A stretch of 34,250 bases of DNA from Alphaproteobacteria bacterium (GTDB taxonomy: Bacteria > Pseudomonadota > Alphaproteobacteria > Rhizobiales > JAKIUO01), in assembly GCA_024280475.1 (NCBI GenBank), contig JAJRQA010000247.1:1-34250 (forward strand), read 5' to 3'. Shown here piece by piece: positions 3,428-31,104 of this stretch. The first letter of the stretch is position 1, and the number at the start of each line of letters is the position of its first letter. Under the pieces are notes generated by a model. It did not search any database. It was not told the DNA's origin and saw only the letters and a list, made by a program, of their open reading frames with translations. A program made the translations under genes and the position numbers.

Positions 3428-3607
3428 GCGCTCGCCGCGCGGCAGCTTGTGCAGCTGGCACCAAGGGCTGGCCCTTGGAACCCATTTTAGGGGTGTTGGT
3501 AATTCCCAGCGGTGCAATACGTCGCTGCTATTGTGACCCCCATCCATAAGCTGGGGTTTGGGGGCCAGTGCCCAACACCGTCTGTGAAGACGCCGCGCGG
3601 CGAGCGC
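3428..3607. repeat. REP/BIME-like element A, two inverted units
   Basis: The gap between two convergent genes is filled by a paired palindromic repeat. Perfect 16-bp terminal inverted repeats lie at 3428-3443 and 3592-3607 (GCCGCGCGGCGAGCGC at the right end). The left unit (3428-3483, read on the minus strand) contains an 8+2+8 palindrome CCAAGGGCTGGCCCTTGG (3461-3478). The right unit (3552-3607, plus strand) has GGGGTTTGGGGGCCAGTGCC and the small hairpin GTCTGTGAAGAC. Related units occur at 17268-17330 and 29777-29914. Confidence 0.8.
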
Positions 3608-17267: not shown

Positions 17268-17330
17268 GGGTTTGCAAAGGGCTGGCCCTTTGCTGTCAGC
17301 CGCACAGGCTGCCTGTCCGGCGAGGACGAG
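17268..17330 (+). repeat. REP-like element C, single unit
   Basis: Single plus-strand unit of the repeat family also seen at 3428-3607 and 29777-29914. It holds a perfect 9+2+9 palindrome at 17274-17293 (GCAAAGGGC then GCCCTTTGC), then CAGCCGCACAGGCTG and CCGGCGAGGACG, matching the order of parts in the other units but with more substitutions. Confidence 0.65.
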
Positions 17331-29777: not shown

Positions 29778-29914
29778 CGCTCGAATGACCTCGTCGGTCG
29801 GGCATGCTACGCGCATGGCGTTGGGGACTAATCCCCAAACCCCAATTTACCAGACAAGGGCAGCAAGGGGCTAGCCCCTTGCTGCCAGCTGCATAAGCTG
29901 CCGCGCGGTAAGCG
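29777..29914. repeat. REP/BIME-like element B, two inverted units
   Basis: Fills the gap between the converging ilvA and GST genes. The left unit (29777-29843, minus orientation) begins GCGCTCG like element A and has the hairpin TTGGGGACTAATCCCCAA and CATGCTACGCGCATG. The right unit (29856-29914, plus orientation) contains a perfect 26-bp palindrome at 29860-29885 and ends CCAGCTGCATAAGCTGCCGC followed by GCGGTAAGCG. Its order of parts matches the units at 3428-3607. Confidence 0.8.
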
Positions 29915-29923
29915 TAATCTTGT

Positions 29924-30583
29924 TTACTTCACCAGCATTTTTTTGGCCCGTTCGATGCGTTCGTCCGCACTGATCATCGGCGGTAATTCCATGCCAGTTT
30001 CAACGGCTGGGCGCGCATCTATGAGGTCGATCCACCGTAAAAGGTTGGGTAGCTTCGCGCCATCAAGGTCGAGCATGTCATAGCGTGATGCCCAGGGAAA
30101 GGTGGCCATATCGGCAATAGAATAGTCACCAGCCAGATATTCAGCTTCTCCCAGCCGCTTGTCGAGGACGCCAAGCAGGCGGGCGCTTTCGTTTTTATAG
30201 CGATCAATGACGGATGGGATCTTTTCGGGGAAATAGTTCAAAAACACAAAAGCCTGTCCCATCATCGGGCCAACGCCAGCCATTTGCAGCATCAGCCATT
30301 GCATGACCAATGAGCGGCCCTTGGCGTCAGATGGCATGAACTGACCGGTTTTTTCCGCCAGATAAATCAGGATGGCGCCAGATTCAAACACTGCAAAATC
30401 ACCTTCATTGCGGTCGATGATGGCGGGAATTCTTCCATTGGGGCTGAATTTCAGAAAATCGGGTGCTTTTTGTTCTTCTTCATTGAAATCAATGGGGTGC
30501 AACTCATAGGGCAATTTCATTTCTTCAAGTGCAATCGAAATCTTGTGACCGTTGGGTGTGGCGGCCGTGTAAAAATCAATCAT
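29924..30583 (-). CDS. Glutathione S-transferase family protein
   Basis: Glutathione transferase of 219 residues with the two-domain layout. The N-terminal thioredoxin-fold domain begins [21 protein letters not shown], with the glutathione-contact block PNGRIPAI and the E-S-G motif ([17 protein letters not shown]). The C-terminal helical domain holds [19 protein letters not shown], the usual N-capping box. It resembles the YfcG/YghU-type enzymes, which reduce disulphides or peroxides. AAAGG nine bases before the ATG at 30583 is the ribosome binding site. It follows the MAPEG gene by 60 bases and is likely in the same, probably TetR-controlled, transcript. Confidence 0.93.
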
Positions 30584-30642: not shown

Positions 30643-31041
30643 CTACAGCATTCCAACGGCAATATAGATCAAATAGAGGCCACCAGCCATACCGACAATG
30701 CCGGTCGCGGCGACACCTACAGCGCGGGGGATACTGGACCCTGATGTTTTGAACAGTCCAAGGGGATGCAGGAAGCGGCCAATGACAAAAGCGGATGCGG
30801 CAATAATGATGATCATCTGGTTGATGCCCGCCATTTCGAGCAAACCAAGCACCAGCAACACGATGGCTGCATTCTCGGCCAGATTACCATGAGAGCGGAT
30901 ACGCTTCAGCAATTCCGGTTGGCCTTTATCGCCCAGACCTTGTGAATGTTTGTAACGGCTCTTGCCGCAAATCATCATCAGGATCATTTGCAGATTGATG
31001 ATGATGCCTGCTGCGATAGCGGTGATAACTGGATAAGTCAT
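30643..31041 (-). CDS. MAPEG-family membrane protein
   Basis: Membrane-associated protein in eicosanoid and glutathione metabolism; bacterial members are often membrane glutathione transferases or peroxidases. The 132-residue product has four hydrophobic segments. The family block RSHGNLAENAAIVLLVLGLLEMAG contains the conserved R-x-x-x-N-x-x-E-x-x pattern, and GRFLHPLGLF follows. GGGAGGA eight bases before the ATG at 31041 fixes the start (the frame is open 21 codons further). Its promoter at 31076-31104 has a perfect palindrome between -35 and -10. The GST gene downstream supports a joint role in electrophile or peroxide detoxification. Confidence 0.92.
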   Translation of the reverse strand: MTYPVITAIAAGIIINLQMILMMICGKSRYKHSQGLGDKGQPELLKRIRSHGNLAENAAIVLLVLGLLEMAGINQMIIIIAASAFVIGRFLHPLGLFKTSGSSIPRAVGVAATGIVGMAGGLYLIYIAVGML

Positions 31042-31075
31042 ATTGTTTTCCTCCCTTTGGTTATAATTGCCACGG

Positions 31076-31104
31076 ATGCTAAAACAGACCAGTTGGTCTG
31101 TCAA
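31076..31104 (-). promoter_or_regulatory. Promoter of the MAPEG-GST operon
   Basis: On the minus strand a perfect -35 TTGACA (31099-31104) is 17 bases from TAGCAT (31076-31081). RNA would start near 31069, leaving a leader of about 28 bases with the strong ribosome binding site. The spacer consists almost entirely of an 18-bp palindrome. Confidence 0.7.
31084..31101. promoter_or_regulatory. TetR-family-type operator palindrome
   Basis: ACAGACCAGTTGGTCTGT is a perfect palindrome with 8-bp arms. It overlaps the -35 element and fills the spacer of the MAPEG promoter, the position where a repressor would block RNA polymerase. The AGACC-N4-GGTCT core resembles operators of TetR-family repressors such as NemR. 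No TetR gene is in the window, so the regulator is unknown. Confidence 0.65.

Follow-up and report, generated by a model that had tools for sequence, protein, structure and literature searches.

A gene for a MAPEG-family membrane protein and a gene for a glutathione S-transferase (GST) follow each other in the alphaproteobacterial DNA analysed here, and the promoter upstream of them carries an inverted repeat. This arrangement raises the question of whether the repeat is an operator and, if so, which regulator binds it and which other genes share it. The window, i.e., the whole stretch of 34,250 nucleotides that was analysed, corresponds to contig C21 in a draft genome of 3.79 Mb and 282 contigs (94.46% complete, 5.22% contamination). 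This genome, G000, was compared with four relatives of the same genus, G001 to G004, and the gene order MAPEG-GST is the same in all five. The features of the locus are the following:

29924..30583, minus strand: glutathione S-transferase, 219 aa (Pfam GST_N, 57.2 bits)
30643..31041, minus strand: MAPEG-family membrane protein, 132 aa (Pfam PF01124, 56.7 bits, cut-off 23.4)
31050..31055, minus strand: probable ribosome-binding site GGGAGG, from a reading of the sequence
31076..31081, minus strand: -10 box TAGCAT, read from the sequence
17-bp spacer between TTGACA and TAGCAT, minus strand
31084..31101, no strand assigned: inverted repeat ACAGACCA-GT-TGGTCTGT (plus-strand reading), predicted TetR operator, from the sequence and five of five genus genomes
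31099..31104, minus strand: -35 box TTGACA, its last 3 bp common with the predicted operator

The best NCBIfam model for the GST was that of a GSH-dependent disulfide-bond oxidoreductase, at 181 bits and under the cut-off of 332; the MAPEG protein had no match among solved structures at an E value of 0.01.

The promoter of the MAPEG and GST genes and its inverted repeat

The promoter, TTGACA-N17-TAGCAT, extends from 31104 to 31076 on the minus strand, matches the consensus at 10 of 12 positions, and was found upstream of the MAPEG and GST genes just as an earlier sequence-only reading had claimed. That reading also described a perfect 18-bp palindrome filling the promoter spacer, and on both points the description needs to be amended. 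The repeat reads ACAGACCAGTTGGTCTGT on the plus strand and ACAGACCAACTGGTCTGT on the minus strand; the two readings differ, and only eight of the nine pairs are complementary, which leaves the 8-bp arms ACAGACCA and TGGTCTGT around an asymmetric centre of 2 bp. The 18-bp site is also longer than the 17-bp spacer and extends over the final three bases of the -35 box. As in TetR operators, the short inverted repeat at 31084-31101 lies over core promoter elements. An RNA hairpin at this place was ruled out, given that the repeat is located upstream of the expected transcription start.

The shape of the repeat is by itself unremarkable. The window holds four repeats of this geometry (8-bp arms, 2-bp gap), against a mean of 0.87 and a maximum of 3 in 60 dinucleotide shuffles (none of the 60 reached four); nevertheless, the other three are alike and GC-rich. 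These three, at 3461-3478 (CCAAGGGCTGGCCCTTGG), 17275-17292 (CAAAGGGCTGGCCCTTTG) and 29864-29881 (CAAGGGGCTAGCCCCTTG), probably form one family of extragenic palindromic elements. The letters of the repeat are more informative than its shape: with uniform composition, 3.79 Mb would be expected to hold 0.014 perfect copies of ACAGACC-N4-GGTCTGT, and the MAPEG-GST site is the sole one listed for G000. The core AGACC-N4-GGTCT is not enriched genome-wide in G000 (3 against 11 for the reversed control), nor is the longer motif with up to two mismatches (9 against 15), and since these totals fall below the reversed control, the weaker matches are mostly background. At no more than one mismatch, three sites were observed where 0.61 would be expected, one each at the MAPEG, gshA and tusA promoters. 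The three exact cores of G000 are located in the MAPEG-GST promoter, before gshA on contig C259 and in a reading frame on contig C85; the last one (C85:2376), within a 188-codon open reading frame, was set aside. The weight of the evidence is thus in the location and conservation of the sites and not in their number.

Within the genus, the MAPEG-GST site was present in all five genomes, with 0, 0, 0, 0 and 2 mismatches in 14 arm positions; it reads ACAGACCAACTGGTCTGT in G000, G002 and G004, ACAGACCGACTGGTCTGT in G003 and ACAGACCAACTGGTTTGC in G001. In a 190-bp alignment, the sequences upstream of TTGACA sort into dissimilar groups across the genomes, and the promoter and the repeat are kept. 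The gene upstream of MAPEG-GST encodes a repeat-rich, surface-protein-like product in G002 and G004 (L033, L024), and a phytase-like esterase in G000 (in the window) and G001 (L077). As judged from these alignments, the locus has been rearranged and its promoter retained. Upstream DNA was read at 30 MAPEG loci (97 of 297 genomes matched; G003 and G004 were taken from other loci), and in the 25 loci from outside the genus the site was not found, the best match being one locus with 3 mismatches. The expectation that the palindrome would be kept at related MAPEG promoters holds, therefore, inside the genus and fails at the loci read beyond it.

Sites before gshA and other thiol and sulfur genes

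A scan of the five genus genomes with up to two mismatches returned 53 sites, 43 of which were read (9/9 in G000, 8/8 in G001, 8/8 in G002, 7/13 in G004 and 11/15 in G003). In one batch of 25 sites, 19 were dropped for lying inside reading frames of at least 90 codons and 6 lay outside such frames. In G000 the core AGACC-N4-GGTCT recurs directly before the glutamate-cysteine ligase gene gshA (TIGR01436, 679.7 bits, cut-off 463.15) on contig C259, in the promoter TTTACA-GACCAGTTGGTCTTTTT-TGATCT, where the repeat has the same register with respect to the -35 and -10 boxes as at MAPEG. The gshA site is present in 5/5 genus genomes, with 1 mismatch in G000 and G002, 2 in G001 and G003, and 3 in G004, in 14 arm positions. 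The glutathione link that had been proposed from the MAPEG and GST genes is hence stronger than was claimed. Outside the genus, the site was not found at the 24 gshA loci read (29 of the 30 fetched loci were read, L116 being left out; 149 of 150 genomes matched), where the best match was a single locus with 3 mismatches, in G012. This genome has weak similar repeats at its MAPEG promoter (L080, ACGGACTGGTTGGTATAT, 4 mismatches) and upstream of its gshA (L133, TCAGACCAAACGGTTTGC, 3 mismatches), which, from their letters, may represent the same control in a diverged form. G008, G058 and G094, all from a single other family within the order, each have a MAPEG gene immediately after gshA and in the same orientation, at approx. 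60-120 bp; this adjacency independently supports the association of MAPEG with glutathione synthesis.

Other genes carry near-copies of the site. Before tusA-dsrE2, checked in four genomes, it has 1 mismatch in G000, G002 and G004 and 2 in G001; it is positioned just downstream of a -10-like box, and in all four genomes tusA lies between the site and dsrE2. The G000 proteins exceed the cut-offs of Pfam TusA and NCBIfam DsrE2, respectively, and the three tusA products scanned score under the cut-off of the NCBIfam TusA model. A gene for a CMD/AhpD-like protein has the site near its start codon, with 1 mismatch in G004 and G003; in G000, G002 and G001 the site at this position has 3 mismatches and its right arm is degraded; an OYE-type reductase gene adjoins it (scanned in G004). 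In G003, a site with 2 mismatches precedes ovoA (TIGR04344, 505.8 bits, cut-off 400). A sulfurtransferase-like gene of the BLH/TIGR01244 type has sites with 1 mismatch in G001 and 2 in G000, G002 and G004. This last target is tentative, since the DNA around the site is also conserved, one arm is broken in G000, and the G000 protein scores 82.3 bits, just under the TIGR01244 cut-off of 85.85, although it exceeds that of Pfam BLH_phosphatase. From the sequences, the shared site marks a predicted thiol and sulfur regulon made up of MAPEG-GST, gshA, tusA-dsrE2, the CMD/AhpD-like gene and, in one genome, ovoA, genes that are probably switched on together under threat from reactive chemicals.

Two explanations would deprive these sites of a common function. 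One is that the inverted repeat arose by chance and does nothing, as could be suspected from the four repeats of this shape in the window and from genome-wide motif counts that stay under the control; nevertheless, the repeat has been preserved in all five genomes at two promoters, which lie on separate contigs, and has near-copies at other thiol genes, and this conservation makes chance extremely improbable. The other is restricted to gshA, where the repeat could serve only as the terminator of the upstream rsmE-like gene, the shared motif being a coincidence. A T run does follow the repeat in G000 and G002 (6 and 5 T in eight bases, respectively), with a fold of -6.0 kcal/mol; however, this count drops to 3 T in G001 and G003, and the predicted fold is weak in G004 (-3.5) and G001 (-1.4), where the operator-like letters are nonetheless kept. 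The repeat at MAPEG, between the -35 and -10 boxes, would moreover not be transcribed from the MAPEG promoter, and we consider the terminator account very unlikely. The repeat at 31084-31101 is, in our prediction, almost certainly a real operator, and very probably one of the TetR type.

An orphan TetR protein as candidate regulator

The resemblance of the core to NemR-type TetR operators, also part of the sequence-only reading, is supported by the E. coli nemR promoter. Read directly, this promoter contains CTAGACCGACTGGTCTAC, and its AGACCGACTGGTCT is identical over 14 bp to the core of the MAPEG site in G003. According to PMC13178969, the operator through which NemR acts is an inverted repeat in the promoter of nemR itself, and its relative AltR uses a different repeat; kinship with NemR alone does not, therefore, fix the operator.

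The five genus genomes contain 39 TetR_N matches, and the only TetR groups present in all five are those designated C99 and C191; the C262 group lacks a member in G001, and the C121 and C111 groups are found in four of the five genomes, absent only from G003, which is 88% complete. None of the 39 genes has the site with up to two mismatches between -300 and +60 of its start, and this includes C99 in each of the five genomes. The expectation that a TetR-family gene would bear the same site thus fails in the genus; outside it, 13 of the 16 nearest relatives of C99 have the repeat (up to 3 mismatches) near their own start, where about 0.2 would be expected. Two other candidates were rejected: C262, for want of an ortholog in G001 and with one of the 17 loci of its set carrying the repeat at 3 mismatches, and C251 (L013), which is found in two of the five genomes and is without a site. 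In G000 the C251 gene stands before genes for S-(hydroxymethyl)glutathione dehydrogenase and S-formylglutathione hydrolase, both above their NCBIfam cut-offs.

The C99 gene is located outside the window, on contig C99 (L016:4483-5100), and four metagenome-assembled genome records carry it at 82-94% identity. Among its 16 nearest relatives outside the genus, L155 has only the relaxed motif, and L154 and L169 have neither form. In the whole C99 set 15 of 34 loci have the repeat with up to 3 mismatches near the start, compared with 0/30 in the C191 set and 1/17 in the C262 set, counts in which starts were placed at a fixed offset, so that a few loci at contig ends may be misplaced, those of the controls included; the control sets also contain genus members (4 of 30 rows for C191 and 4 of 17 for C262). 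With the relaxed motif the figures are 7/34 (0.16 expected), 2/30 (0.10) and 0/17 (0.09), respectively. L153, the closest relative of C99 among those read, is 44% identical to it and shares the helix KGAFYHHFTSK; its own promoter has ACAGACCAACTAGTCTGT at -101 and ACAGACCAACTAGTTTGT at -70. Computation thus establishes the operator type beside the C99 relatives, as it does the sites, their conservation and the gene families.

The relatives L153-L168 occur in clusters of a TetR gene and an MMPL transporter gene, some of them with a LolA_like gene. The neighbours were named by eye, and nine transporter genes and one LolA-like gene were then confirmed; the neighbouring transporter gene was scanned at 9 of 17 loci, and all nine exceeded the Pfam MMPL cut-off. 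The promoters of this group carry repeats of the ACAGACC, CATACC or TAGACC type, and from these sequences the type of repeat seems to vary with the recognition helix. C99 of the genus has the same operator type as these clusters at its predicted targets; in contrast to it, the clustered relatives carry the site themselves and adjoin an MMPL-family transporter gene (9/17 loci scanned). No MMPL transporter neighbour of C99 was seen in the region read in the genus.

C99 belongs, above the gathering scores, to the TetR_C_13 and TetR_C_13_2 families (PF16925, 50.5 bits; PF21993, 53 bits; cut-offs 27), and its sequence matches the solved structures 3qbm, 3bru, 1sgm (YxaF) and 4yze (NemR). Its Cys112 and Lys181, invariant in the five orthologs, align with Cys106 and Lys175 of NemR, and the predicted targets, like those of the NemR-nemA-gloA system of E. 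coli, are tied to glutathione or electrophile detoxification and share the core AGACC-N4-GGTCT. On the other hand, C99 is an orphan that is 24% identical to NemR and lacks the site in its own promoter; in the 10-kb region of G000 that was read, no nemA or gloA was seen by eye beside it, and its predicted regulon takes in glutathione synthesis, MAPEG-GST and sulfur carriers. Cys21 and Cys116 of NemR, which take part in its electrophile response according to PMC7464077, align with C99 positions that are not Cys. C99 scores 95.3 bits with the AcuR model NF051457 of NCBIfam, under its cut-off of 247. The C-terminal Pfam families are the same as in LmrA/YxaF (QdoR) of Bacillus subtilis, the YxaF structure 1sgm is among the best matches, and the LmrA/YxaF box would resemble the site of the genus. 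YxaF has Ile at the position of Cys112, and, unlike what is predicted for C99, LmrA/YxaF is flavonoid-responsive and autoregulated, with quercetin dioxygenase as its target (PMC8481877). From these sequence comparisons, C99 is the candidate regulator to which we assign a good probability.

Predicted repression and its release

The reading that we find likely on the whole is that the repeat is the operator of a TetR repressor with NemR-like DNA specificity, that C99 is the best regulator, and that release follows a thiol-reactive signal; binding, repression, the identity of the regulator and the signal are what we infer. A TetR dimer on 31084-31101 would occlude the spacer together with the end of the -35 box, excluding RNA polymerase from the MAPEG-GST promoter. 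At gshA, with the same -35/-10 register, the same repressor would block the polymerase, and it would also act just after the -10-like box of tusA-dsrE2, near the start codon of the CMD/AhpD-like gene and, in one genome, before ovoA. Glutathione synthesis (together with that of ovothiol in the ovoA genome), glutathione-dependent detoxification and the sulfur carriers would in this manner be held down together. Relief of repression by a thiol-reactive signal is moderately likely: an electrophile, an oxidant or polysulfide would modify the conserved Cys112 of C99 and release the protein, and glutathione synthesis and use would then rise together. By analogy with NemR, for which electrophile and oxidant sensing is described in PMC7464077 and PMC8748444, the signal may be an electrophile or an oxidant; the TusA, DsrE2 and BLH-like targets would suit reactive sulfur species.

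With the same operator and regulator, the regulon could in fact answer reactive sulfur species such as polysulfide or persulfide instead of electrophiles, in which case gshA, GST, MAPEG, TusA and DsrE2 would handle sulfane sulfur. The TusA and DsrE2 targets favour this, as does the tentative sulfurtransferase-like one, and because of the tusA-dsrE2 target reactive sulfur species are an equal alternative to electrophiles; nevertheless, the CMD/AhpD-like, MAPEG and GST targets suit electrophiles or peroxides equally well, the 43 of 53 sites read had neither a sulfide:quinone oxidoreductase gene nor one for persulfide dioxygenase beside them, and we hold this signal to be possible rather than probable. 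A different objection concerns the protein, for the operator could belong to the C191 TetR of the YHHGNLR type, to the C121 or C111 TetR, or to a repressor of another family. C191 is likewise present in 5/5 genomes and the relaxed motif occurs at 2/30 loci of its set (0.10 expected); moreover, the C99 promoter is without the site, and draft genomes may miss the true regulator. However, at up to 3 mismatches the C191 set has 0/30 against 13/16 for the nearest C99 relatives, C262 has no ortholog in G001, and another regulator is on this evidence unlikely.

Taking C99 again as the preferred regulator, the proposal can be compared with eukaryotic systems. With Nrf2 and Yap1, a single factor that senses stress ties glutamate-cysteine ligase to the detoxification enzymes that use glutathione; unlike the repressor predicted here, both are activators and they belong to unrelated families. 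Among the matches listed in literature searches there was none on a TetR regulator of gshA or of a MAPEG gene, nothing useful on TetR with DsrE2 or TusA, and no match to the motif letters. The proposal extends a NemR-like operator class to glutathione synthesis, under a probable orphan regulator.

A conserved predicted operator thus joins glutathione synthesis, MAPEG/GST detoxification and sulfur carriers, with one candidate regulator and exact sites, and the proposal is open to test using a single protein and a handful of short DNA pieces. Since the nearest relatives of C99 adjoin transporter genes, the system would be a readable case of regulator rewiring. We suggest only tentatively that it may be a bacterial counterpart of Nrf2, in which a cysteine-bearing TetR protein, whose relatives control an MMPL cluster, became separated and was rewired to the economy of low-molecular-weight thiols in response to electrophiles, persulfides or both. 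If true, its control would extend over the synthesis of glutathione and, in one species, ovothiol, MAPEG/GST conjugation and TusA-DsrE2 sulfur trafficking.
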